Shown here piece after piece: positions 345 through 50,689 of a DNA stretch of 64,000 nucleotides. Made by a program: the position numbers and the translations under genes. The notes under the pieces were generated by a model. It was not told the origin of the DNA and searched no databases. It was given only the letters and a program-made list of their open reading frames with translations. This DNA comes from Dillenia suffruticosa. Its lineage: Eukaryota; Streptophyta; Magnoliopsida; Dilleniales; Dilleniaceae. Location of the stretch: assembly GCA_033439265.1 (NCBI GenBank), contig JAVTVX010000010.1:27827056-27891055 (forward strand), given 5' to 3'. Position 1 is the stretch's first letter. The number at the start of each line of letters is the position of its first letter.

Positions 345-2818
345 ATGGTAAGACCCAAGTTTTTCTCAGTTAGGCTTGCGGTCTTAGCTCTTAATCTTTT
401 CCTTGAAGCATGTATTGCCAGGAAATGCGTTCCTTCTTCATGTGGAAATATTGCTAAAATCAGCAGTCCTTTCAGACTAAAACATGATCCTCCTGGGTGT
501 GGTAAGCGTGCATTTGAATTGGAATGCGAGAATAACCGCACCATACTTCATCTCGATTCAAGGAAATACTTTGTGGAAAATATTTATTACAAGGATGGTG
601 GGCAGCTACGTGTTGTCGATGCAACTCTAAGTAGTGACATTTGCTCCAACATTCCTGGCAATCCCATCAAGAATAGTGGTCAACGATACTTCTCATATCT
701 AACTTCTGTGGTTATAAGCATTTTGAGCTGTGAAAAGCAAGTGAAAAATTCTTCCCTGTATCTAGATTTCTCAAATTGCTTCATCAATAGCTCTTCCTCC
801 ACAGATGTGAACTTCCATTATGCTGCAATAGGAAACCTTCTGGTGTCAGACGTGCCCAGCTCATGCAGCGTTCTTTTTGTCCATCCTTTGGACAAATCAA
901 TTTTCAGTAACAGGTCTATTCCACGTGCCAATTATTCGAATTTGGTGTTCATTGATGTCACAAACCTTTCTATTACCGACATCAACAGTGGGATGCTAAA
1001 GGGGTTTTTACTTGATTCTCTTCGTGTGTGAGTTTGTTTTCTTCACTAATACTTTATATAATGCGTGTCGTGTGTGCGCATGCATGCTGTTTCTCTCTCT
1101 TGCTTTTTTTCTTTTCAGTTACTAAATAAGATGTTAAGAGTCTTTCTTGGCTCTGTTATTTAGCTCTTCATGTTCATGGGAGTACAAACTCAGCTGACCT
1201 AGTTCTTTTGGTTAAATTGCAGCCCTTACTTCTGGTTCGAATACTTATGGTTGGATTTCTTTTATTTCCGTGGTGAGGTCTTCATGACGCTTTTCCATTT
1301 AAATGGACTGCTAGGTTTTATTATTATTAATGTTCTATTCATTTAATCTCTTCCAATTTGTTATCCTTTTTGCAGTCACAATAATTCAACTTACAGGTGA
1401 GGGTCATGCAGTTCCGGCACTTGCTCCACAGAGAGATCATCTTGTCACAGACAGGGAAAATATGGGTGCAGAGTTTCTTTACCTAAATCAAATAAATATT
1501 ATTATTTTGAAAGGGGGATTGAGAGGTTTTGATGAAACACAAGAAATGCAAATAATTTTTATGTTAAATAAAAAAATTCCACCCAAGTGGATATTTCTTT
1601 CATTAAATAAATTAAACGAGATTAATTTAAACCACAAGGTATTTGAAGTAACAGTATCTTCTCATCAGTCCAGTATTTCTTCTGATTTCTGATCCATATC
1701 ACTTTCATGTTTTTTAAGTGTTATGCTTGGCTGGAAGAGCCCTCTTGGGAATGTGCTGCTTGACTGCACTTATAACCTACAAGTTCCGCCGGAGACACTT
1801 GTCAACTGATGACTACATTGAGGAATTCCTTCAAAGTCGCAACAACCTCATGCCAATCAGATACTCCTACGCCAAAATAAAACAGATAACCAAAGGATTC
1901 AGGGACAAATTGGGTCATGGAGGGTACGGCTCTGTTTACAAGGGGAAGCTGCAAAGCGGGCATTTTGTTGCTGTCAAAATGTTGAACAAATCCAAAACCG
2001 ATGGCCAGGATTTCATAAGTGAAGTCTCGACAATCGGAAGGATTCACCATGTCAATGTTGTGCAGCTCATTGGATTTTGTGCAGAGGGATCAAAACAAGC
2101 TCTAGTTTATGATTTCATGCCTAATGGATCCCTGGACAAGTTCATCTTCCAAGGAGAAGAGAAGAATAGCCCATTGAGTTGGAGAAGAATGTTTGAGATT
2201 TCACTTGGAGTGGCTGAGGGAATCGAATATTTACATCGGGGCTGTGAAATGCAGATTTTGCACTTCGATATTAAGCCACACAACATTCTTCTTGATGATA
2301 ACTTTGTTCCAAAAATCTCAGGTTTTGGCCTTGCCAAACTTTATCCAACAGATGATAGTATAGTCTCTCTCACTGCTGCAAGAGGGACACTAGGCTATAT
2401 TGCTCCGGAATTGTTCTATAAGAATATTGGAGGCATTTCATGCAAAGCTGATGTCTATAGTTTTGGGATGTTGCTGTTGGAAATGGTGGGAAGAAGAAAG
2501 AATTTGAATCCATATGCAGAGCACCCGAGTCAAATATATTTCCCTTCATGGATATATGACAGATTTGAGCAAGGATTGGACATGGATTTTGGAGATGATG
2601 TGACAGAGGATGAAAAAAGGATTGCAAGGAAGATGGTCTTGGTCGCACTGTGGTGCATACAGATGAAGCCCGCTGAGCGTCCTTCAATGAGAAGAGCATT
2701 GGAATTACTTGAAGGAGAAGTTGAGCTTCTGCATATGCCTCCCAAGCCTTTCCAACACCGTGAGGAGATGGCAACAGCCTTCTCACACAATGCTATTGAC
2801 ACCATCTCAGTTGATTGA
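345..2818 (+). CDS. LRK10L-type (rust resistance kinase Lr10-like) receptor kinase 1, unit A; DFG altered, possibly a pseudokinase
   Basis: Predicted plasma-membrane receptor-like kinase. Exon 1 (345 to about 1023) encodes a signal peptide (first ~24 residues) and a GUB_WAK-type cysteine-rich ectodomain. Its last exon (about 1719-2818) encodes a juxtamembrane segment and a full kinase domain: glycine loop [17 protein letters not shown] lysine, catalytic HFDIKPHN (non-RD, F replaces R) and GTLGYIAPE. The ATG at 345 is the first in frame after the T-tract. The metal-binding motif reads SGFG instead of SDFG (codon GGT at 2321-2323); the unit B relic keeps GAT. The C-terminal ectodomain cysteines (CxxC...GGxC type) seen in kinase 2 are absent, and exon 1 ends after a ~30-bp deletion relative to unit B. 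One or two small middle exons between 1220 and 1400 (a 'PYFWFEYL'-like segment near 1223) are plausible but their borders are unresolved. The family is clear; whether it is functional is not. Confidence 0.65.
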
Positions 2819-4276
2819 CGATGAGTGAATGGAAGTAATGAGTTTCTACTAATGGTGAATAAAAAAGACTGAATATAAGGTGGTTGAGTGCGAACAAGAG
2901 GCAGTGGTTACAAGTTAGCTGCCGCTTTAATCCTTTCATCCTTGGTCGTCCTAATTTTTTTTTTTTCCTTCTTTTTGTATTGTACCAGTGCTGTATCCTG
3001 CATTATAATAAAAAGGAAAAAGAAATATGTGCTATGCTTGAGTTATAAATCCTGCATTCGAGGATATGCGTAGGTAATTATAGACACAAGTAAAAGAGTA
3101 GTGCATACATAACACCAAACACGCTGCATTCAAATCCATAAAATTGTATGAATACAATCAGGTGTCCTTTAGGATAATGCCATTAAGTCTGAGAATAATG
3201 CTTATGACAAGTTTCTATGACCTGTGTGGCAGTTACATGACCTATCATGCTATGATATAAGAAAGTCTGCACTAATCTCATGAACGAGATCGAAAGCGAT
3301 AATCATGTGGGATTTGTTTAGTTGGACTACCCCATTTAAAGCATGCTGAACAATATCACCTATTTGGATTATATGATCTCACTGTTTTGTCTCAAAAGAC
3401 GTTGACCATTTTAGGGGTGTGATTACACTTATATAACCGAATGATCACTCTGGAACTAGCCGATCCGGGATAAAACACATCCACCCTTACCTTTTTATAG
3501 CCAAGACTGAAACATCTTTACTTACTGATATGGAATTCCACCCTCCGCCATCCACACCCCACACTACTAAACTAATGTGGGATGCTAGAGTATGGCACTA
3601 AACAAATATGCAAAGTGTAACATCCACCAGCTGAGTCTGTAAGCAATAAAATCCACAATCCATTTGTAATAAGGAACAACACTATAGGCTATCTAAAACT
3701 CATAATAGTCATCATGGAAATGTAATAACAGGAAAAATATACACCACAAAAATTTGAGAAGGCCAAACAAGACACCATAAAAAAAGCCAAATAGTGGCTC
3801 TAAGGGACGAAAGAGGTTATACTTAGTTGAAGACCATATGAACAAAAAACAAGTTCCAGTGGTTTTAAACAGAGCATGAATAGAAAAGAAGATAATAATA
3901 GAAGAAATTCCTCAAATTTATTGGTGCTGGCCCACGGAGTGCCCCGGTCTTCACCCTCCTTACAAGTCAAAAAGAAACACGTCAATTTTATGGACTTGAT
4001 GGTGAAAAGCTCTCACGAAATTTCGAGGTTGAGTTTCCAATACATTGAGTGCTATAGTCTTGAAGATAATGTCATTGAAGTGTATACTGAAATTCTGGCC
4101 TAGTGGCCTTGAAAAGTAGAAACAGAATCAGTTATTCATCTTGCCCATGGAACAATCTCTCTCACAAAATATTTAACTCCGGCTAAACTCGAGCTTCAAA
4201 ATTGGTTATTTATGTCTTTTTTGCCGCGTCCTAGAGGATAACCAAGGAAAAAGATTTCCAACAGGGTTTTGCAGAG
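2819..4276. other. Intergenic region between kinase 1 and kinase 2, unit A
   Basis: No gene seen. It aligns along its length with 51225-52677 of unit B with scattered substitutions and small indels. Its right part should hold the promoter and leader of kinase 2; the last bases before the ATG at 4277 are nearly identical in the two copies. Confidence 0.6.
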
Positions 4277-6465
4277 ATGAGTTCTTCAGTCCAAGTATTC
4301 ATCTATATCTCGAGTCTATTAATCATAGTGGCAGTAATCTTGGCAGATGAGCTTGAAAATCATTGTGTTGAATCAACATGCAGAGGAAGCAGCCCTGTCA
4401 TCCGATTTCCATTTCGTCTTAAGGGTCTCCAACCAATTGAATGTGGTTATCCCGGCTTTGATCTTTCTTGTACCAATGATAACAAAACTCTGTTAGAGTT
4501 ACCTAATTCAATCAAAGTTTTTGTCAAAAACATAAATTACAGATTGCAGACTATTGATGTAATTGACCCTGGTAGCTGCACCCCCAAACTAGAAAAAAGC
4601 ATGAACTTAACCAATTCCCCTTTCCGAGTTGGCCAGGACTTTTATTCTTTTTATTGTAGCTTGTTCAATTGTAGCTCAACAGTGGATTTCCTCTATGCTC
4701 GCCACGTCCCATGACTAAGCAATCCGGGCTTCAAGGTCTTTGCTGCAGCTAATTATGATGATATTTGGGATATTCCTTTGTCATCTTGTACCAAGATGTA
4801 TGATGTTCCTGAAGGTGCGATCCTTACAGACAACCAAACGGTTCTTTCTTTCAGTTGGTTTCGGCCGAGTTGTCAAGAATGTGAAGCAAGTGGAGGAGGT
4901 TGTAGGCTCAAGAACAGTCAAACTAGATCGAATCTGAAGATTGAATGTTGAAAGAAACATGATCTAAATTCCGGTACGTGCATTCAATTCCCAGAAAAGT
5001 AACAAATTTCCACCAAACTCTGATTCTGGCATCAAAATATAGAAAAACATGTGGATCCCAGCATTACTTATTAATCTTCCTACAGTATCGATTTCTTTAT
5101 CCGGTTCCTGTACATTTTACAGGCCCTAAGAATTTACAAGTGAAAGATAAGTTATTTTTCTCCTTCATATTTTGTTTTTTAATTTGTTCTTTAGCCTGAC
5201 AAACTGATCAAATTTGTCCATTCACTTCCTTCACAGGTTCAACAAAGAAAATAGTGGTTGCAGGTAAAGTGCAGCTAAACATTTTGCCACTCCTGCTGCT
5301 ATTATGGATATTTATCGCTCTGAAAATTTTTTATTTCAAAACCAGGTGCAAGTTTAGGTGCATTTATGTTTGCCTTTGCAACCATTCAATTCTGCCGCAT
5401 CTATAGATTGGACAAAGTGGAGAGAGAGCATCAACGAAAGATTGAAAAATTTCTGGATGATTATAGAGCAGATAAACCCTCAAGATATTCCTATGCTGAC
5501 GTCAAGAGAATCACCTCCAAGTTTCGGGATAAATTGGGCCAAGGGGCTTATGGAACTGTGTACAAGGGAAAGCTTTCTAATGAAGTGTTTGTAGCCGTTA
5601 AGATTCTTGACAGCTCTGAAAGTGATGGAGATGAGTTCATCAATGAAGTAGCAACTATGGGTAGAATTCATCATGTCAATGTGGTCCGGTTGGTGGGGTT
5701 CTGCGCTGATGGGTTTAGACGAGCTCTCATTTATGAGTTCTTGCCAAATGGGTCCCTAGAGAAGATCATATATTCGAGAAATGGTCTCTCTCTCTCTCTC
5801 TCTCCCTTGGTTGGCAGAAAGTTCATGACATTGGCCTAGGCATAGCCAGGGGAATTAAATATCTTCACCAAGGTTGTGATAAACCAATTCTCCATTTTGA
5901 CATCAAACCACACAATGTTTTGCTAGATCAAAATTTCAATCCTAAAATATCTGATTTTGGACAAGCCAAACTCTGTTTCAGGGACAAAAGTCACGTGTCC
6001 ATAACTGCTGCAAGGGGAACCATGGGCTATATGGCACCTGAAGTTTTCTCAAGGAACTTTGGCAACGTATCTTACAAGTCTGATGTTTATAGTTTTGGCA
6101 TGTTGCTTCTTGAAATGGTCGGTGGGAGAAAAGTACACACTGCAGCTAAGGAAATTAGTGAACTACAGTTCCCAGCATGGATTTATGATAGCTGGAAGGG
6201 AAAAGATGATACGCCCTCTCAAATGGACGATGATGAACAGGCCAAGATAGTGAAGAAACTAACCGTTGTGGGTCTGCGTTGCATGCAGTGGTACCCAGTT
6301 GATCGACCCTCAATGAATGTGGTGGTTCAAATGCTGGAAGGGGAAGAAGGCAATCTAACCATTCCACCTAATCCTTTTGCTTCGACAGGTCCATCCTCAT
6401 CCACCGGAAGCATGCCTAGGAGGCCTTTTAACCAAGAACGACCTGCTATCCCTGAATCTGAATAA
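4277..6465 (+). pseudogene. LRK10L-type receptor kinase 2, unit A copy, inactivated
   Basis: Same three-exon layout as the intact copy at 52678-54869: exon 1 4277-4973, exon 2 5237-5263, exon 3 5346-6465, with the same GT/AG borders. Exon 1 encodes a signal peptide and GUB_WAK ectodomain; exon 3 encodes the membrane segment and a non-RD kinase with HFDIKPHN and SDFG. Three lesions are visible against unit B. A TGC to TGA stop lies at 4712-4714. A second TGA lies at 4949-4951. A (TC)10 tract at 5785-5804 has one extra TC over the (TC)9 of unit B, shifting the frame to a stop at 5837-5839. The kinase part after the shift (5920-6465) is still open, so decay is recent. A transcript could exist, but no full receptor can be made. 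Confidence 0.9.
5785..5804 (+). repeat. (TC)10 microsatellite inside kinase exon (frameshifted allele)
   Basis: Ten TC units. The unit B gene has nine at 54188-54205, where they encode alternating Leu-Ser in frame. The extra two bases cause the frameshift of this copy. Confidence 0.95.
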
Positions 6466-33617: not shown

Positions 33618-34236
33618 TGTTAGGAAAACTTACTTGATGCAAAAATATATCAAATATGGTGTTAAATTATCAGAATCAAAACTTAATAACTAAAAAAAAC
33701 TGAAATTCAAGTTGGATGGAAGTGTACCTGACTCCATAGCCGAAAACTGAATAGAATACAAACTTGATTCGACTTTCGTCTGGGCAGAATCTCGGCCACG
33801 GCCTTCCAGATCAAATGTATTCTCACAAAAATCTCTCTATATGATGGGAGTATTAGGGAGAAGAGTAATTCACTGACCCAAGGACCATAACATTTATTTA
33901 TAGTTGTAGGGATGACTTTACTTCCAAATTCATAATTAGAATTTGCTATTTAGTTTATTCAAATTAGCTTACTCGATTCACATGAATTTAGGTAACTTTC
34001 ATGTTATTCTTAAGTCACGCTTAGACATTCCCTATTTAATCCATCATAAATAGTAAATATCTATTGGTATCTACACATTTATTTATTTTCATATCCTTTG
34101 AGATAGTTAAACCCAAATTACTGAATTTTTCAAATTTACCATATCACTTTCATATGGGCTTATCTTATGGATTTGACAATATACAATACATAATTATTTT
34201 AACATATAAGGCCAATGTTGGATTAATGATCCAACA
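33618..34236 (-). repeat. copia-2 3' LTR
   Basis: 619 bp, paired with 40614-41233. The polypurine tract follows at 34237-34250. Confidence 0.93.
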
Positions 34237-34925
34237 ATCTCCCACTTGGGTTATATGTGAGACTTTATAATTGTGTAATTGCTAAATAACCGAATGAGCT
34301 CAACTTTTCTGTCAATATTTAAATGTATCTACAATCAATTCCGTCCATCAATTATATCAACTTAGGATCAAGGCGGCTTTTGTTGCATTTCGCAACTAAA
34401 CCTTCAATCGTCACGTAAATTGATATAACCAAATGACATGGATCATGATATGGATGCGTAGTATGGAAATGTCATGCAATATGATCTTTGACATGCCTAT
34501 TTCCAACTGGTCCTCTTTAATAAGATCATACCAAATTAGAGTGAATAAAAACCGAATATTTATTTCTGCAGAATTAACTCAAACTTTACATCAATAGAAC
34601 ATTCATAATTTATAAACTCCCACTAAAACTATATATCCTTAAGCGGCATTACACCCACATGAGCAACATGCTCAAGGAATACTTTGGGTGGCAAACCCTT
34701 TATAAGCGGATCCGCAATCATGGAATTTGTTCTTATATGTTCTATGGATATCTGACCACTCTATACTCTTTTTTTAACAACCAGAAACTTGATGTCTATG
34801 TATTTGGACTTTGTCGAACTCCTGTTGTTATTGAAATATTGGATTGCCGATTTGTTGTCACAAAATAATTTGAGTGGCTTATCAATGCTATCCACTATCC
34901 GCAGTCCCGTGATAAAATTTCGCAG

Positions 34926-36304
34926 CTATATTCCATGGTTGGATGTCTCATGACACGATATGAATTTTGCTGCCATTGTGCAAGATGCTATAAGAGACTG
35001 TTTAGCACTCTTCCAAGAAATGGGTCCTCCCGCTAGCATGTAGATATAGCCTGTTGTAGATTTCATGCTATCTTGGCATCCCGCAAAGTCGGAGTTAGTA
35101 TACCCAGTGATCTCAAGCCGTTCTGACCTCCGATACGTGAGCATATATTTCTTCATTCTCTGTAGATACCGCAAGATCCGTTTGACAGCTTTCCAATGGT
35201 CCATTCCATGATTGCTTAAGTATCTGCCCAATAATCATGTAATGTACGCAATATCCTGACGCGTACATACCTGAGCATACATCAGACTTCCTACCGCTGA
35301 TGCATAAGGAATCTTTTGTATTTCTCGTTTCTCAATATTATTTTGGGGGCACTGTTTGAGACTAAATTTGTCTCCCTTAGATATAGGGGTATCACCTGGT
35401 TTACAATTTTGCATGACATATCTTGTTAAAACCTTTTCAATATATCCCTTTTGAGACAATTGTAGAATACCCTAAGAACGATCTCGGTGTATCTGAATGT
35501 CCAACACGAAAGAGCTTTCCCCAAGGTCTTTCATCTCAAATTTCTTAGTGAGAAAGATCTTGGTTTCATATAATAGGTCTTTATCGTTACTGGCAAGCAA
35601 TATGTCATCGACATATTAAACTAGAAAAATATACTTACTCCCACAGAACTTATGGTATATACATTCATCAACTAAATTCATCTCAAAACCAAAAGAGATG
35701 ATTATTTGATAAAATTTAAAATACCATTGTCAAGATACTTGCTTGAATCCGTAGATGGGTTTTTTAAGTTTGCAAACCATATTTTTTGGATTTCCCAACA
35801 CAAAGTTTTCTGGTTGCAACATATAGATCGTTTCATCAATGTCACCATTGAGAAACGCTGTCTTTACATCCATTTGGTATAACTTAAGATCAAAATGTGC
35901 CACTAATGCCATTATAATTCTAAAAGAGTCTTTCGAAAAAACTGGAGAGAAAGTCTCTTTATAATCTATATCTTCTTTCTATGTGAAACCTTTTGCGACA
36001 AGATGAGTTTTATATCTCTCCACATTGCCTTTCGAATCTCTTTTGGTTATATCCATTTACAACCAATGGCTTTTGCTCCTTCAGGCAATGGAACGAGATC
36101 CCAAACGTCATTGTCCTTCATGGACTTCATCTCCTCATTCATGGTATCGATCCACTTTTGAGAGTTACAACATTCAATGGCTTGATGGAAGTTGATCGGA
36201 TCATCTTCCATCACTCCAATGTCAACATCATGTTCCTGAAGAAATACAACATAATCATCCGAAATTGTATTTTTTCTTTCTCTCGTGGATCTTCTTAATG
36301 GCAT
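34926..36304 (-). pseudogene. copia-2 reverse transcriptase / RNase H relic
   Basis: Fragments in several frames: QMDVKTAFLNGDI (about 35860) and a YVDD core near 35595-35610 with a stop just upstream. YASAVGSLMYA (about 35290) and an RNase H block (about 34926-35231, DFAGCQDSMKSTTGY) follow. Clearly dead. Confidence 0.85.
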
Positions 36305-36366
36305 AGGTTCTTGAGGTGATAGACTTTGTTTTTCCGAAGTGGAGGGTTCTCCAACATTGTCTAACT

Positions 36367-38274
36367 CTATTGTGTTTTGAACAGGATTATGGATAGAAAC
36401 CTGGTCAAGTCCAATAACACCTGTGGAAATATCAATATATTCCTTTTAATGTCTCTAACCATATCGCCCCCCGCAAACTTAACATTCTCAAAGAACCAGG
36501 CATTTCCTGACTCAAAAATGACCTTATTTGTGGGATCATAACATTTGTACCCCTTAGATTTTTTAGAGTATCCTACAAAATAGCAGCTAACAGTCTTAGC
36601 ATCTAGTTTCCTTTCATTGGGCCTAAAAGGCCTAGCCTCAGCTGGACAACCCCAAACGAGCAAATGCTTCAGGCTAGGACGTCTGCCAGTCCAAAGTTCA
36701 TAGGGGGCTTTGGTAGTTGCCTTAGTAGGAATCCTGTTTAGAAGGTATGCTGCAATCTTGAGTACCTCTCCCCAGAGTGACTCAGGTAAGACAGAATAAG
36801 CAATCATACTTCTTACCATATCTTGAAGAGTCCTGTTTCATCGTTCAGCAATATCATTCATGGCGGGTGAGCTAGGCATGCGCAAATGCTTCAGGCTAGG
36901 ACGTCTGCCAGTCCAAAGTTCATAGGGGGCTTTGGTAGTTGCCTTAGTAGGAATCCTGTTTAGAAGGTATGCTGCAATCTTGAGTACCTCTCCCCAGAGT
37001 GACTCAGGTAAGGTAGAATGAGCAATCATACTTCTTACCATATCTTGAAGAGTCCTGTTTCATCGTTCAGCAATATCATTCATGGCGGGTGAGCTAGGCA
37101 TGGTATACTGTGGAACGATACCGCATTCCTCTGGGAAGTGAGCAAACAGTCCTGAACGTTGTTCACATGATCCATCATTTCTGCCATAGTATTCTCTACC
37201 ACGGTCAGATCTGACTTTCTTAATTCGTTTGCCAAGTTGGTTTTCAACTTCTGCTTTATAAATTTTGAACATATCCAGAGATTAGAACTTTTCTGTAAGG
37301 AGATAAATGTAGTCATATCTTAAATAATCGTCTATGAACGTGATAAAATATCGTTGACCATTCTAAGAAGCCGAAGGGAATGGTTCAGAAATATTCGTAT
37401 GAATCAGTTCTAAGACGTCTGAAGTCCTGTTGGCCTTGTAATTCCTTTTATTAGTTTTTTTACCCTTTATACAATTTACACAAATGTCAAAATCTGTGAA
37501 ATCAAGGGAATTAGAAATTCCTTCTGATACAATTCTCTCTATTCTCTGTTTGGAAATATGACCTAATCTTTTATGCCATAACGAGGAGGAATTCTCATTG
37601 ATTAATTTGCGCCTTACATTTCGAGTATCAGTATGCAGAGATTCATTAAAACAAGCCACAATATCAAGTAAATAAAGATTATCAAATCGTAATAAAGAAC
37701 CGGAATCAACTAATTTTGAATCAAGAAACAAACTAACTTTCTCATTTCCGAAAGAACAAATAAAACCAAATTTGTCCAATACAGAAATAGAAATCAAATT
37801 CCGTCCGAAAGACGGTACAATAAATGTTTCATGCAAATCCAAAAAGAATCCGGTCCTTAATGATCTAAACCGTCCTATGGCTTCAACTGGAACCTTATTG
37901 TCATCGCCTACGTAGATGTATCTTTCACCATCATTTGACGTTCGATAATTTAGGCAACCCTGCATGGACATACTGATGTGAGTGGTTGCAGCGGAATCTA
38001 GCCACCAAGTATGTCCTGGTACTGAAATTAAATTAACCTCAGAACAAATCAAAGATAGAGGCATACCTTTCTTTGTATGCCAGGCGTGATAATTGGTACA
38101 CTCATTCTTTCTATATCCCTCAGCACCACAAAAGAAACATCCTTTCTTTTCCAGTTCATCTGGTACCTTTTGTTGCTTCTTCTGAGGTGTCGTACTTGCA
38201 GCATCCTTAGCGAGCTTCCTTTTCTTGCCTTTGATCGAGACTAAGTGAGCACTTTCTGTCCGATCTCGCTTCAA
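36367..38274 (-). pseudogene. copia-2 gag zinc finger, protease and integrase region
   Basis: Minus-strand frame 38274-37363 holds a CCHC-like knuckle (CFFCGAEGYRKNEC), a protease site read as DSAATTH (DSG changed to DSA), and the pre-integrase finger (LWHKRLGHISKQRI...CVNC). The integrase core continues leftward in broken frames to 36367 and contains an in-frame 222-bp tandem duplication. Confidence 0.87.
36661..37104 (-). repeat. 222-bp in-frame tandem duplication in copia-2 integrase
   Basis: Units 36661-36882 and 36883-37104 are nearly identical (two or three substitutions) and 222 bp is a multiple of three. Both encode the segment with LNRIPTKATTKAPYELW. Confidence 0.93.
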
Positions 38275-38933
38275 TCGTTCCTCTTCTTGGACACAGTGAG
38301 AGATAAACTCATTCAGAGACTAAGTCTTTTTTTGATAATTATAGCTCACTTTAAACTGATTAAACTGTCCCGGAAGAGATATTAAAACCAAATGCACAAA
38401 CAAGTCCTTAGAGAGATCAAGCTTGAGTGCTCATAACTTTGAAGCGATATGAGACATCTCCATAATATACTCCATAATATTGTCTTGACCTTTATACTTC
38501 ATTGATACAAGATTTGCCAAAAGTGTACCAATTTCTGACTTTTCATTCTTGGCAAACCTTTTTTCAATATCAGCAAGGAAGTTCTTAGCTATAGTAATAG
38601 CATTAGATATAGTGTCCCCTAAAACTTTCTGGGATGGCATTCTTCATAATCATGAGATTAATGCGATTCGATCTCTCCCACCTTTCAAACTCCCTATTTT
38701 CATCAGAGATACTCTTATCTGTCATTGGTGGAGGACAGTCAGTCCATAACGCAAAGTCCATATCCATAACCCAGAGAACAATCAGAAGATTTTATCACCA
38801 TGATTTGAAGTTTGAGCCATTCAACATGGGAATAGAGTTGAGTTGGGTATTGATATTGGTAGAAATAGTGTTAACTGTCAAAATAGAGAACGATGATCAA
38901 TATATACTCAAACGGAACTTTAAAACCAAATAA
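38275..38933 (-). pseudogene. copia-2 gag relic
   Basis: Minus-strand reading near 38870-38640 shows the copia gag start (LNSIPMLNGSNFKSW) followed by a stop. The frame 38640-38431 continues with gag helices. Interrupted. Confidence 0.75.
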
Positions 38934-38939
38934 ATTCAA

Positions 38940-40133
38940 ATATGAGAAATTCTCATCATAAGATACCGATAACTCAATTAATATTTATCTTTGGACAAAA
39001 TAATTAACTTATAAATGGTATCTTAATATAGTAATCAAACACTGACAATAAGAGCATGTGAAACAACTATTTTCCTTTGGGCCGAATCACATGATAAAAC
39101 CGAAAAATTGTCACGCATTTATTACCACAATGTACACATGCAATTCTGTCAAATATGAACTTTCCTTTGGACCGATCGGTATCCACATGAATTGCATACA
39201 CACAATCTCTTATATCCCAAAAATAAATTAATTTCTACAAGAGAGATCACTTTGGTGATATGTTGATTCAATTAATGTATCTCGAAATATATACAAAACC
39301 ATACTCATATTTGAATAACATCCGTAATTGGAAAAAAATCCAATTTTATCGTGATGGACTCAATATCTGGAGGATTGGGCCATTTAAAGTCCAATCTTAT
39401 AAATTTTAAATTGGACCCGAAAAAGGAAACTCAATGTTATTAAATCTATCTCCATCGTTTTTCTTTTCCATCCCTATATCTTCGTTGTCGGCATAAAACC
39501 AAAGTTTTAACATTTTGCCAACAACTGATCCAAAACTTGGCCAATCCCTATTCTGTAGCAGAGGACACCAGAAAAGTTCCCAGGTAGATGGTGAATTCAT
39601 TTAGAACTGCTTAAAAACCAACCAATTTTAGACTTATCTCCGTCTTCTTGACAGAACTTTTCTAGATATGTCATGCCATCGCATACTAAAAGAATGACCA
39701 ATTTTGAATATAAAAGAGACAGTAAAGAATGATAAGGATGAAAATGGGTTCAATTAAGTCCAATGAGTTCCAAAACTTTTTATATCCAAGATTGAGTCTG
39801 TTTGGGCCCAAAATGGCCCATATCCCCTTTTTTTTTTGGTGACGTAGATTTGCAATAAAAGAAAAGTTTCATTTTATTAGAATCTAAAAGTTTTATACTA
39901 AAATTGGGATATCATTCTTTAAAAAAAAAGTAAACTAAAATATGAAAATTTCCTTTATTTTTTTTTTTGTTTCCCAAAACAAAAGTTTCCTTAAATTTTT
40001 TTTTAAGTCGATGGGACCAAAAAAAAAAAATCAATTTCCTTTTAAAAAATATTTGTCCAGGAAAGTGATAGATAACAAAGATTCTTGTATAAAAAAATAA
40101 ACAACTTTTCTTAAAAGAAAAATTAACTTCCTT

Positions 40134-40189
<56 letters not shown>

Positions 40190-40459
40190 CCAAAAGTACT
40201 TGCCATGTTCCAGTGTTCTCGGAGCTACAATTTATTCATTTTTTTCTATTCTGTTTCACACAAAAAAGAAAGTCCTCCTTTTTTGTGATAAAAAAAAATA
40301 CCCTTTTTGAAGTACCGAATGTTGATTTTGATAAAAAAATTTTCCAATTTTTTAGAAACACTGGATGTCGACTTTTAATAAGAACCGAAGGTCGACTTTA
40401 AATAAAAATTTTCCATAACATTTTCCTTTATTGAAATCCACAAAAAAAAACTTGAATAT

Positions 40460-40493
<34 letters not shown>

Positions 40494-40613
40494 TTTTTTT
40501 TCCCTAAAACCAAAATATCAAAAAAAAAAGTTCATAAAATACTAAAATCATAGTAAATCTTAAATATACAGAAAAATCCCGATGATTCAAACATGAGAGG
40601 CTCTTATACCACT
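38940..40613 (-). other. copia-2 untranslated leader with TA microsatellites
   Basis: AT-rich stretch between gag and the 5' LTR, with a long (TA)n tract at about 40136-40186 and another near 40456-40490. No ORF of interest. Confidence 0.7.
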
Positions 40614-41233
40614 TGTTGGGAAAACTTACTTGATGCAAAAATATGTCAAATATCGTGTTAAATTATCAGAATCAAAACTTAATAATTAAAAAAATCTAAA
40701 ATTCAAGTTGGATGGAAATGTACCTGACTTTATAGCCAGAAACTGAATAGAATATAAACTTGATTTGACTTTCGTCTGGACAGAATCCCGACCACGGCCT
40801 TCCAGGTCAAATGTATTCTCACAAAAATCTCTCTATATGATGGGAGTATTAGGGAGAAGAGTAATTCACTGATCCAGTGACCATAACCCTTATTTATAGT
40901 TGTAGGGATGACTTTACTTCCAAATTCATAATTGGAATTTGCCTATTTAGCTTATTTAAGTTATCTTATCCGATTCACATGAATTTAGGTAACTTTCATA
41001 CTATTTTTAAGTCACCCTTAAACATTTCCTATTTAACCCATTATAAATAGTAAATGTTCATTGGTATCTACACATTTATTTATTTCTATATCTTTTGAGA
41101 TATTTAAACTCAAATTACTGAATTTTTCAAATTTACCAAATCATTTTTATATGGGTTTATTTTATGGGCTTGACAGTATGCAATACATAATTATTTTAAC
41201 ATATAAGCCTAATATTGAATTAATGATCCAACA
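40614..41233 (-). repeat. copia-2 5' LTR
   Basis: 620-bp partner of 33618-34236, followed directly by ATGTG and the rest of the interrupted exon. Confidence 0.93.
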
Positions 41234-41640
41234 ATGTGAACTTCCATAATGCTGCAATAGGAAACCTTCTGGTGTCAGACGTGCCCAGCTCATGCAGAGT
41301 TCTTTTCGTCCATCCTTTGGACAAATCAATTTTCAGTAACCAGTCTATTCCACATGCTATGAATGGATATTATTCGAATTTCGTGTTCATTGATGTCACA
41401 AACCATTCGGTTACCGACATCAACAGTGCAATGCTAAAGGGGTTTTTACTTGATTCTGGCAATTAGGGAGTGCTTCGAGGTGGAAACTTATTATTACCGT
41501 GTGAGTTTGTTTTCTTCACTAATGCTTTATATAATGCGTGTCGTGTGTGCTCATGCATGCTGTTTCTTTCTCTCTTTCTTTTTTTCTTTCAGTTACTAAA
41601 TAAGATGTTGAGTCTAGGTTTCTTGGCTCTGTTATGTAGC

Positions 41641-41924
41641 TGTTGAGAAATAGTTATTGAGCTAAATTCAGCAAGTAGTTAGTTTGTTAGTTTGTTAGTT
41701 TGTTAGTTTGTTGTTTGTTAGTTTGTTAGTTTGTTAAGAAGTTAGTTTGTTAGTTCAACAGTTAGCCATTTTGGTTTTGAAGCTGAGCAGTTGAGGTAGG
41801 CAGTTAGTGTTAGTTCCTTCCTTGTATAAATAGATCCCTCCTATTACAGAATGGAGGTATGACTCTATAGCAGCATTGTTGATGTTGTAGCCCAAAACCA
41901 ATATACTTAGCTCATATTTTAACA
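41641..41924 (+). repeat. copia-3 5' LTR
   Basis: TG...CA, 284 bp, with a minisatellite of TAGTTTGT units at about 41682-41745 and a TATAAATAG box near 41825. Confidence 0.95.
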
Positions 41925-46239: not shown

Positions 46240-46679
46240 GGGGGAATGTTGAGAAATAGTTATTGAGCAAAATTCAGCAAGTAGTTAGTTTGTTAGTTTG
46301 TTAGTTTGTTAGTTTGTTTGTTAGTTTGTTAGTTTGTTAGTTTGTTAAGAAGTTAGTTTGTTAGTTCAACAGTTAGCCATTTTGGTTTTGAAGCTGAGCA
46401 GTTGAGGTAGGCAGTTAGTGTTAGTTCTTTCCTTGTATAAATAGATCCCTCCTGTTACAGAATGGAGGTATGACTCTCACTACAAAAAAAACACATTTTT
46501 TGCGACGAAATTTAGCGATAAATTTTTTTCGTTGCAAATTTGCGACGAATTTAGCGACGAAATATTTTTTCATCGTTATTTCTAACGAAATTTCCAACGA
46601 AAAAAAAGTCGTAGCTAATTTAGAGACGACCGGAAATTTGTCGCTAATTTTGCGACGAATTTCAACATTCGTCGCTAAT

Positions 46680-49015
46680 TTTGCGACGAATTCTGAGATT
46701 CGTCGCTAATTTTGCCACGAATTTTGAAATTCGTCGCTAATTTTGAAAATAATAAAATAAAATAAAATATTAATATATATTAATTAATTAATTAATTAAT
46801 TTTGCGACGAATTTCAAAATTCGTAGAAAAATTAGCGACGAATCTCAGAATTCGTCGCAAAAGTTGAAAAATAATAAAATAAAATAAAATTTTAATATAT
46901 ATTAATTAATTAATTAATTAATTTTGCGACGAATTTCAAAATTCGTGGTAAATTTTGCGACGAATTTCAAAATTCGTCGCAAAATTTTGAAAATAATAAA
47001 ATAAAATAAAATTTAAATATATATTAATTAATTAATTAATTAATTTTGCGACGAATTTCAAAATTCGTGGCAAATTTTGTTACGAATTTCAAAATTCGTC
47101 GCAAAATTTTGAAAATAATAAAATAAAATAAAATTTTAACATATATTAATTAATTAATTAATTAATTTTGCGACGAATTTCAAAATTCGTCCCAAAATTT
47201 TGAAAATAATAAAATAAAATAAAATTTTAAGATATATTAATTAATTAATTAATTAATTTTGCGATTAATTTCAAAATTCGTGGCAAAATTTGCGACGAGT
47301 TTCAAAATTCGTCGCAAAATTTTGAAAATAATAAAATAAAATAAAATTTTAATATATATTAATTAATTAATTAATTAATTTTGCGACGAATTTCAAAATT
47401 CGTCGCAAAATTTTGAAAATAATAAAATAAAATAAAATAATATATATTAATTAATTAATTTTGCGACGAATTTCAAAATTCGTCGCAAAATTTTGAAAAT
47501 AATAAAATAAAATAAAATTTTAAGGTATATTAATTAATTAATTAATTAATTTTGCGACGAATTTCAAAATTCGTGGCAAATTTTGCGACGAATTTCAAAA
47601 TTCGTCGCAAAATTTTGAAAATAATAAAATAAAATAAAATTTTAACATATATTAATTAATTAATTAATTAATTTTGCGACGAATTTCAAAATTCGTCCCA
47701 AAATTTTGAAAATAATAAAATAAAATAAAATTGTAATATATATTAATTAATTAATTAATTAATTTTGCGACGAATTTCAAAATTCGTCGCAAAATTTTGA
47801 AAATAATAAAATAAAATAAAATTTTAATATTAATTAATTAATTAATTAATTAATTTTGCGACGAATTTCAAAATTCGTCGCAAAAGTTGAAAAATAGTAA
47901 AATAAAATAAAAATTTAATATTAATTAATTAATTAATTAATTAATTTTGCGATAAATTTTAAAATTCGTAGCAAATGTAGCGACGAATTTCAAAATTCGT
48001 CGCAAAATTTGAAAAAAATTAAATAAATTAAAATATTAATATATATTTATTATTTTTTAATTAAAAAAATTATCACATTTATTATTTTTAATTAATATGT
48101 TATATTTTATTTTTATATTATCTTTTCTAAAAATAGTATTATTATTTTTATATATATATTTTTATTTTATTTTAAACTAATATTTTATTATTTTATAATA
48201 AATTGTTATTTTATATTGTTTTATTATTATGTGAAATATGTAAGGGAAAGATAATAAGTAAAAAAAACAATTTATAACAGATACTAACGTTTAACTTGAT
48301 GGTTACATGATCTTAAAGGTTTACGGAAGCGCAAGGGTTCGAACCATGGTGGGAGCAAAGCAGTGGAATTTCTCAAGAATTAAGTGAGGGAGGGCGTGTG
48401 GGTGCCGGCTCGGGCGGGCGTTCGGGCGGATGCTGGCTCGGGCGGGCGGGCGGGCCGGATTCAGGCGGTGGAATTAATTAATTAAATTTGCGACGAATTT
48501 CAAAATTCGTCGCAAACTTAGCGACGGATCTTAGAATTTGTCGCAAAATTTGAAAAATAATAAAATAAAGTAAAATTTTAATATATATTAATTAATTAAT
48601 TAATTAATTTTGCGACGAATTAGGAAATTCGTTGCAAAATTTTGAAAATAATTCAATAAAATAAAATAAAATATTAATATATATTTATTAAATAATTAAT
48701 TAATTTTGCGACGAATTGAGAAATTCGTCGCAAAATTAGCGACGAATTCCAGAATTTGTCGCAAAATTTGAAAAATAAATAAATAAAATAAAATATTAAT
48801 ATATATTCATTAATTAATTAATTAATTTTGCGACGAATTTCAAAATTCGTCGCTAAATTTGAAAAATAATAAAATAAAATAAAATATTAATATATATTTA
48901 TTAAATAATTCATTAATTTTGCAACGAAATTCAGAATTCGTCGCAAATTTTGAAAAATAATTAAATAAATTAAAATATTAATATATATTTATTAATTAAT
49001 TAATTAATTTAGCGA
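46680..49015. repeat. Array of about 18 hairpin-forming units in the CACTA element
   Basis: About 12 units lie left of the GC-rich core (46680-48045) and about 6 to its right (48480-49015). The perfect form of the palindrome has 11-bp arms (GCGACGAATTT). Unit length varies mostly by A/T linker length and by loss of one palindrome arm. The GCGACGAA core also fills both subterminal regions. Confidence 0.9.
48285..48475 (+). other. GC-rich core with tRNA-like A and B boxes inside the CACTA element
   Basis: A-box-like TAACTTGATGG at 48292-48302 and a perfect B-box palindrome GGTTCGAACC at 48336-48345 have tRNA-like spacing. A stretch of GGGCGGGC repeats follows at about 48391-48465. It resembles a captured tRNA-derived head. 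No complete tRNA cloverleaf can be drawn. Confidence 0.6.
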
Positions 49016-50689
49016 CGAATTTTTGATTTTCGTCTCTAAATGTAGCGACAAATAATTTTCGTCGCTAAATTTGCGACGGATTTAGCGACAAAAAATTATT
49101 TGTCGCGAAATTTAGCGACGAATTTCTAATTTTTCGTTGCTAAATTTTTGCGATGCGTTATTAGCGACGAAAAATTTTTCGTCGCTAATTTCGTTGCTAA
49201 AGTTTTTAGCAACGAATTTTTATTAAATTTTCGTCGCTAAATTTGTTGCTAAAAGCTGGTTTTTTTGTAGTGTCTATAGCAGCATTGTTGATGTTGTAGC
49301 CCAAAACCAATATACTTAGCTCATATTTTAACAGTAGCTCTTCTTGTTCATGGGAGTACACACTCAGCTGACCTAGTTCTTTTGGTTAAATTACAGCATT
49401 CTAGAAATGCTCATCCCCATCGGTGTCTATGGTGAGGTCTTCATGACGCTTTTCCATTTAAATGGACTGCTAGGTTTTATTATTGTTATTTTTCTATTCA
49501 TTTAATCTCTTCGAATTTGTTATCCTTTCGCAGGAGGAATACTTACCGGTGAGGATCATGCAGTTCCGGCACTTGCTCTACAGAGAGATCATCTTGTCAC
49601 TTAGAGGGAAAATATGGGTGCAGAGTTTCTTTAGCTAAATCAAATAAATATTATTATTTTAAAAGGGGGATTGAGAGGTTATGATGAAACACAAGAAATG
49701 CTAATAATTTCTTATGTTAAATAAAAAAAAAATCCACCGAAGTAGATTTTTCTTTCATTAAATAAATTAAACAAGATTAATTTAAACCTTTTAAACCATA
49801 GGGCAATTGAAGTAACAATATCTTCTCATCAGTGTAGTATTTCTTCTGATTTCTGATCCATATTACTTTCATGTTTTTAAGTGTTATACTTGGTCGGAAG
49901 AGTACTCTTGGGAATGTGCTGCTTGACTGCACTTATAACTTACAAGTTCCGCCGGAGACAATTGTCAACTGATGACTACATTGAGGAATTCCTTCAAAAA
50001 TACAACAACCTCATGCCAATCAGATACTCCTACGCAAAAATAAAACAGATAACCAAAGGATTCAGGGACAAATTGGGTCATGGAGGGTATGGTTCTGTTT
50101 ACAAGGGGAAGCTGCAAAGCGGGCATTTTGTTGCTGTCAAAATGTTGAACAAATCCAAAACCAATGGACAAGATTTCATAAGTGAAGTCTCGACAATCGG
50201 AAGGATTCAACATGTCAATGTTGTGCAGCTCATTGGATTTTGTACAGAGGATCAAAACAAGCTCTAGTTTATGATTTCATGCCTAATGGATCGCTGGACA
50301 AGTTCATCTTCCAAGGAGAAGAGAAGAATAGCCCATTGAGTTGGAGAAGAATGTATGAGATTGCACTTGGAGTGGCTCAGGGAATTGAATATTTACATCG
50401 AGGCTGTGAAATGCAGATTTTGCACTTCGATATTAAGCCACACAACATTCTTCTTGATGATATCTTTCTTCCAAAAATCTCAGATTTTGGCCATGCCAAA
50501 CTTTACCCAACAGACGATAGTGTAGTCTCTCTCACTGTTGCAAGAGGGACACTAGGCTATATTGCTCCGGAATTGTTCTATAAGAATATTGGAGGCATTT
50601 CATACAAAGCTGATGTCTGTAGTTTTGGGATGTTGCAGTTGGAAATGGTGGGAAGAAGAAAGAATTTGAATGCATATGCAGAGCACTCT

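Follow-up and report, generated by a model that had tools for sequence, protein, structure and literature searches.

Results

A CACTA element filled with palindromic dyads

The window analysed here is a 64,000-nt stretch of Dillenia suffruticosa DNA (contig JAVTVX010000010.1, positions 27,827,056 to 27,891,055 of the forward strand). Positions 46478-49272 are occupied by a 2795-bp element with CACTA ends and 21.8% GC (34.7% for the whole window), most of whose interior consists of palindromic dyads that are also found in its own subterminal regions. The element starts with CACTACAAAAAAAAC at 46478 and closes with ...TTTTTTTGTAGTG at 49272; its terminal inverted repeat (TIR), CACTACAAAAAAA, comprises 13 identical nucleotides at both ends and is of the CACTA type, and TCT on either flank forms a 3-bp target-site duplication (TSD). 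Comparison of the window with itself shows that the host is the 3' long terminal repeat (LTR) of a Ty1/copia element, whose 5' LTR has uninterrupted matching sequence with a single TCT. The presence of this empty site in the partner LTR establishes the ends of the element and the 3-bp duplication directly, and thus bears out the CACTA ends and the TCT duplication reported in the first-pass annotation. With CACTA TIRs, a 3-bp TSD and a subterminal motif in direct and inverted copies, the element shows three features of the CACTA (En/Spm) superfamily; no stop-to-stop frame of 130 codons is found within the window copy. The features of the locus are as follows.

41636-41640 and 49334-49338: GTAGC, the host copia element's own TSD
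41641..41924, + strand: 5' LTR of the host copia, carrying the empty site (window self-comparison)
46247..49333, + strand: 3' LTR of the host copia, interrupted by the CACTA element (window self-comparison, LTR alignment)
46475..46477, no strand: left TSD copy TCT (one TCT at the empty site in the copia 5' LTR)
46478..46490, + strand: 5' TIR CACTACAAAAAAA, 13 bp common to the 3' end (end comparison)
46491..46647, + strand: 5' subterminal region; GCGACGAA and related motifs lie in either orientation (motif counts, alignment of 23 copies)
46648..48007, + strand: left palindrome array, 21 dyads at 31 or ~91 bp, the first three 31-bp units without linker (dyad positions)
48008..48485, + strand: central spacer between the arrays, without dyads (dyad positions, alignment of copies)
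48486..49007, + strand: right palindrome array, 7 dyads and the last linker, oriented as in the left array (dyad positions)
49008..49259, + strand: 3' subterminal region, with serial TTTAGCGACGAA...TTCGTCGCTAAA-type dyads (motif counts, alignment of copies)
49260..49272, - strand: 3' TIR (end comparison)
49273..49275, no strand: right TSD copy TCT (flank comparison, empty site)

The core motif GCGACGAA occurs 47 times in the element (27 forward, 20 reverse) and nowhere else in the window, with 0.36 occurrences expected in the window from window shuffles. The palindrome GCGACGAATTT-NN-AAATTCGTCGC has 27 copies at no more than three mismatches, against 0.01 expected from shuffles, and counting by position gives 28 dyads; in the perfect unit the arms extend to 15 bp once the flanking T and A runs are included. 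Successive dyads are spaced 31 bp apart, or ~91 bp where a linker intervenes, the linker being a 60-bp, AT-rich sequence that ends in TTAATTAA repeats. By our own count, ~18 units bear a linker (16 flanked by dyads, one split by the spacer and one at the right edge), in agreement with the ~18 units first proposed, and they stand alongside the 28 palindromes. The description of the element as composed almost entirely of repeat units was too broad: the dyad arrays (46648-48007 and 48486 to ~49007) make up roughly two thirds of it, and the remaining third is formed by the two subterminal regions and a central spacer, which had been overlooked.

This spacer appears to split one linker, parting the long left array from the short right one. 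Its non-linker part (~48050-48475, ~430 bp, delimited by eye) is AT-rich and then GC-rich, with the word GGTTCGAACC; an origin from a tRNA or a short interspersed element, considered on account of this word, was rejected, as no tRNA was found among 64 Rfam matches (E up to 10) and ARAGORN reported none in the window. The sharing of one core between the interior and both subterminal regions holds: both regions contain inverted GCGACGAA dyads, for instance TTAGCGACGAAAAATTTTTCGTCGCTAA near the 3' end, and linker-free 31-bp units open the left array immediately after the 5' subterminal region. Neither viral_contigs nor genome_contigs contains a match to the exact palindrome pattern, which is unsurprising for a plant repeat. 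The motif word also turned up in a kiwifruit paper, where, in the portion accessible, it is located in NAC coding sequences and is uninformative here.

A family with a common plan

The source genome comprises 596 Mb in 37 contigs. A search with the whole element, in which the best 40 of 4573 candidates were scored (330 matching pieces reported), provided the 40 loci read here, which are the best matches to the window element. Both ends were found in the right order at 34 of these 40 loci, so that elements sharing both ends do exist in the genome, as the earlier proposal required. Identical 3-bp TSDs flank 25 of the 34 two-ended copies (~0.5 expected if all triplets are equally likely), with one base off in 4 more. 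The six loci lacking both ends (L009, L013, L017, L024, L027 and L033) were excluded from the TSD and architecture counts. Two-ended copies measure 1469-3753 bp (median 2397, n=34), well beyond the few hundred base pairs, with TIR, of a miniature inverted-repeat transposable element.

The copies follow a common plan of a 5' end of ~170 bp, a left dyad array, a spacer, a short right array and a 3' end. The dyad-position table, the subterminal alignment and the 6.2% unit divergence given below refer to the first 28 loci, 23 of them two-ended, and the linker-free dyad triplet was counted by eye in 19 of these 23 copies. The left array holds 9-35 dyads and differs between copies in 31-bp and 91-bp steps; the right one holds 2-9, most often seven (15 of 33 copies). 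A spacer of 459-689 bp lies between dyads in 32 of the 34 two-ended copies, and in a search with the spacer sequence the best 40 of 773 candidate places scored were all 91-100% identical to it. Overall, these copies have the appearance of a genuine, transmitted family and not of a stray satellite.

The exact 5' end CACTACAAAAAA..TTTTTGCGACGAA occurs 241 times in the genome (100 listed), with 0 matches for the reversed control; judged by eye, these ends form several subfamilies by their intervening bases, the array family being ACACATTTTTTG. On contig C12, same-strand CACTA 5' ends recur at ~6.82, 7.09 and 7.35 Mb and at 6.88 and 7.15 Mb, with a spacing of ~262.7-262.9 kb, which suggests a large tandem duplication or an assembly duplication. 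At 2653-5866 of locus L039, a family copy is cut at ~850 bp and followed by another element-like stretch with more than 1 kb of decayed GCGACGAA-type dyads; the ends lack a matching TSD.

The array outside the element was traced with an exact 35-base word spanning dyad and linker, a search that finds perfect matches and lets diverged arrays escape. The word occurs at 67 places, which group into 37 clusters of no more than 1223 bp, and thus no long free array of the kind that characterizes a satellite was detected by this exact-word search. Thirty of the 37 clusters are tied to the family, either because a correctly oriented CACTA end is listed within 4 kb or because they lie inside a copy that was read. 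Seven are unlinked, and the family spacer adjoins two of them; the 5' ends listed cover the genome up to contig 15, and most of the remaining unlinked clusters lie beyond, with one, on C12, falling within the listed range yet lacking an exact 5' end. A captured satellite would be expected at unrelated loci without CACTA termini, and such a distribution is not what most of these clusters display.

Age and origin of the array

The two LTRs of the host copia differ by 3 substitutions in 284 aligned sites and by one 5-bp length difference in a repeat. At commonly used plant substitution rates (7e-9 to 1.3e-8 per site per year), this places the copia insertion at roughly 0.4 to 0.8 million years ago, the CACTA element having arrived later. 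The left units of the window copy differ from one another by 5.5% or 6.2% on average (two comparisons), and because this is far above the divergence of the copia LTRs, the units must have diverged before the insertion; formation of the array after insertion is accordingly rejected.

Divergence among units was compared for 365 units of both arrays in 32 elements, with positions counted from the spacer, which units lost from the arrays shift and therefore blur. L039, with a 1360-bp gap from a further insertion and no TSD, and L040, in which no spacer was found, were left aside. Right-array units of different copies diverge by 6.1% at the same position and by 10.5% at different positions, and those within one copy by 11.3%. 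This positional likeness indicates that the array was most likely present in the founder and was copied by transposition; together with the shared plan, it led us to reject the idea that a satellite had been captured by chance at this locus alone. Left-array units are slightly more alike within a copy (9.3%) than between copies (9.9%), a difference reached by none of 500 label shuffles, which points to weak local turnover. The left arrays have also undergone a few recent block duplications: in 4 of the 32 copies the longest exact internal repeat exceeds the longest stretch common to any other copy, as in L005, with a 261-bp internal repeat and 139 bp shared with another copy.

A sister group is formed by 11 places that match the 3' end of the window element at 337-342 bits and 89-91% identity; two further places of a different pattern in this score range were left out, and one place corresponds to the array copy L011. 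Judged from coordinates only, the ~550 bp next to the end contain repeated blocks of ~160-220 bp, in either orientation, that resemble the 3' subterminal region; some of the opposite-strand matches would arise from the palindromic dyads in any case. Pairing with 5' ends by hand gives lengths of 2504 to 3085 bp for seven members. These blocks would fit a process in which subterminal repeats are repeatedly amplified inward.

Conservation and folding of the dyads

Within the dyad arms, CpG sites are conserved at 0.87 and the other arm sites at 0.98, with 0.80 at the dyad centre; the linker has a mean of 0.944 and a median of 0.983. Among the changed inner left CpGs, 106 of 136 are now TG or CA, the pattern left by deamination of methylated C, whereas just 103 of the 238 changed outer ones are, and one right-arm C has mostly changed to G (two right-arm rows were left out of this table). 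Methylation may thus fairly be held to explain part of the CpG decay, not all of it.

Paired changes were counted in 798 dyads from 33 elements (L039 excluded), with relatedness uncorrected. Double changes are near independence at most pairs, for example at pair 3 (46 vs 47.4 expected, 20 of them Watson-Crick), and fall below it at pair 10 (3 vs 7.4); they exceed expectation at pair 2 (22 vs 17.2), pair 6 (14 vs 8.0), pair 9 (2 vs 0.3) and pair 11 (23 vs 19.9, 22 of them Watson-Crick). As most pairs are near independence and the dyads are related, the pairing does not evidently reflect selection. Array RNA of 961 nt has a predicted fold of -339 kcal/mol, against a mean of -161 for 20 shuffles (z -23.8), in which units pair with one another over tens of base pairs; this strong folding follows from the palindromes and indicates capacity only. 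Positions 46681-46860 and 49028-49123 resemble the Rfam families MIR7533 and MIR6297 (E 4.9e-12 and 5.3e-06), at bit scores far below the gathering scores, and it may be that both of these plant miRNA families are CACTA-type palindromes in their own right.

Surroundings of the element

Window positions 1-27198 and 32808-64000 form a large tandem segmental duplication, whose pieces are 73-95% identical and which contains a receptor-like kinase cluster (GUB_WAK_bind ectodomain and kinase domain) and a DUF1674 gene; its second copy is interrupted by nested insertions. Direct 622-bp repeats at 33618-34238 and 40614-41235, 90.5% identical and situated in the same receptor-kinase gene copy, probably delimit an older LTR element (33618-41235), which adjoins the young copia with the CACTA element inside. 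A 222-bp tandem duplication (36660-37102, 98% matches) adjoins or falls within a copia coding remnant on the minus strand.

Discussion

The plan shared by the copies, the occurrence of one dyad in both the arrays and the subterminal regions, and the positional likeness of the right-array units are best accounted for by a non-autonomous CACTA (En/Spm-type) family whose subterminal dyads, probably binding sites of a helper protein, were amplified inward. We consider this reading, which is drawn from sequence comparison, very likely. A subterminal dyad would have been duplicated as a 31-bp unit and would then have acquired the AT-rich linker, the dyad-linker unit expanding afterwards by unequal exchange or replication slippage. 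The array, already present in the founder, would have been multiplied by transposition of the element, moved in trans by the transposase of an autonomous CACTA element. A TnpA-like protein would bind the putative GCGACGAA sites; in the simplest functional view, surplus sites would be tolerated and may aid in competition for the helper protein, and the CpG-rich dyads would draw methylation.

Several observations weigh against this reading. The role of GCGACGAA as a protein-binding site is putative, and conservation of the dyad arms does not clearly exceed that of the linker. An identical TSD is absent from 9 of the 34 two-ended copies, 5 of which have two or three mismatches, and the 40 loci, having been chosen as best matches, favour copies like the window element. 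The search for an autonomous partner with matching subterminal repeats, suggested by the first-pass annotation, found none among the listed ends and the scored transposase places. CACTA transposases are numerous in the genome: the best 150 of 2258 candidate places for PF02992 (Transposase_21) were scored, those listed all being above the cut-off. None of the 59 PF02992 places typed for the contigs covered is found in the 20 kb downstream of any of the 100 5' ends listed (out of 241). Just 1 of 58 DUF4218 places is found there, at 18 kb, which a rough estimate puts near chance. By eye, these 20-kb stretches contain no PF13963 place, and the exact 3' ends (45 places), when matched by eye to the listed 5' ends, give short elements only. 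Nor does GCGACGAA occur within 1.5 kb on either side of the 30 PF02992 loci read. This negative result is weak evidence, as most candidates were left unscored and most 5' ends unlisted. Seven PF02992 places tie at 281.0 bits, with open frames of 793-800 amino acids (e.g. C4:14255134, C15:4806646 and C24:19047308), a lineage that may have moved recently.

Of the other origins considered, the chance uptake of an independent tandem repeat by a CACTA element has a precedent in the 171-bp satellite carried by CACTA elements of Chenopodium quinoa, according to the accessible part of that report (PMC8978399). In the present family, the linker has no clear subterminal counterpart by eye and 7 of the 37 unit clusters are not linked to a CACTA end; against this, the dyad belongs to the element itself, as its subterminal motif, no exact-unit cluster exceeds 1.3 kb, most clusters are tied to CACTA ends or to copies that were read, and the family spacer is found beside two of the other seven, so that we regard such a capture as quite improbable. 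Repetitive dyads at both ends, as in Galileo and Tetris, might instead recall a foldback-type element with long, internally repetitive inverted ends. The CACTA termini, the 3-bp TSD and the TIR of just 13 bp contradict this, and the linker is oriented alike in both arrays, which are therefore not inverted copies of each other; a foldback origin is thus extremely improbable.

Two further explanations concern why the array is kept. It might be retained for soaking up the helper protein, either raising the element's own share of transposition or damping the helper, as in the decoy once suggested for this copy. Dyad totals of 14 to 41 per element, from the 33 two-ended copies that have both arrays, are in line with this, as are the tandem repeats of Galileo, reported, in the text available, to carry further transposase-binding sites (PMC3688188). 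The dyads, however, have no clear extra conservation over the linker, and across 32 copies left dyad number shows no correlation with divergence from the family (Spearman 0.15, p 0.42). The latter result leaves no support for array length as a mobility advantage, and hence for a very mobile derivative, and we hold the decoy to be a doubtful though not negligible possibility. Alternatively, array transcripts might fold and feed 21/24-nt small-RNA pathways, the hairpins being selected for that purpose. Strong predicted folding, the resemblance, below gathering scores, to two miRNA families and the excess of double changes at a few pairs (6, 2 and 11) speak for it, but palindromy alone accounts for the folding, most pairs are near or below independence and shared ancestry could yield the excesses. 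With a compensatory signal so little above independence, selected RNA hairpins were rejected as an account of the array, and we judge this explanation unlikely.

The amplification of subterminal dyads within a CACTA family can be set beside several known systems. Soybean Tgmt* resembles the window family in its CACTA ends, its 3-bp TSD and a subterminal motif in direct and inverted copies, with two potential stem-loops at the left border and 12 at the right, where 24 repeats occupy 732 bp, but it is 20.5 kb long and putatively autonomous, and, as far as the accessible text describes, has a different motif and repeats confined to the subterminal regions (PMC2613891). In Chenopodium, Jozin carries 19-23 copies of a 12-bp subTIR motif, and the C. 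quinoa elements share with the window family an internal tandem array; that array is a satellite near the 3' end, judged in the consulted portion to be captured, in elements with transposase (PMC8978399). In contrast, the unit of the window family contains the subterminal dyad, and no transposase lies within the element. Two foldback-like DNA transposons of Drosophila, Galileo and Tetris, are also comparable. Galileo belongs to the P-element superfamily, has long TIRs and differs from CACTA elements in its transposase and TSD. It is like the window family in having tandem repeats inside its ends, where the further transposase-binding sites were identified from a footprinted site, as the part of the paper at hand states (PMC3688188). 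The authors of the Tetris study propose, in the section available, that such repeats first aid transposition and then seed satellites or longer arrays (PMC4079207). ENSAT1 of Arabidopsis is likewise a tandem repeat derived from an En/Spm-like element, Atenspm, although its origin is listed, in the extract accessible, as the 5' UTR (PMC9659126).

With regard to small RNAs and methylation, the rice CACTA element with miR820 reportedly gives rise to a single miRNA and not to an array. It is an example of transposon-derived small RNAs, as described in the accessible part of the source (PMC3459959). Methylation is linked to activity in soybean TgmR*, whose subterminal repeats are hypomethylated in the mutable line, according to the passages available (PMC4219821). 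In the literature accessible to us, outside which most subscription journals lie, we found no description of a CACTA family whose own subterminal dyads make up an array filling the element, and we make no claim of priority.

Beyond the inward amplification itself, it is possible, in a tentative extension, that the helper-binding dyads have been made into an expandable array (9 to 35 on the left), through which passenger elements compete for, and may titrate, the DNA-binding protein of the autonomous element. Unequal exchange would then adjust array length like a heritable dial, and in the sister group (2.5-3.1 kb) the process would have run a second time, independently.

To our knowledge, the reason why CACTA elements retain many subterminal repeats is not settled. 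Copies that are otherwise alike differ almost fourfold in their number of left dyads, and the family thus provides a natural series on whether extra sites help, hinder or silence an element. The present results suggest that a satellite-like array can arise from a transposon's own control sequence and be spread by transposition, instead of being captured.

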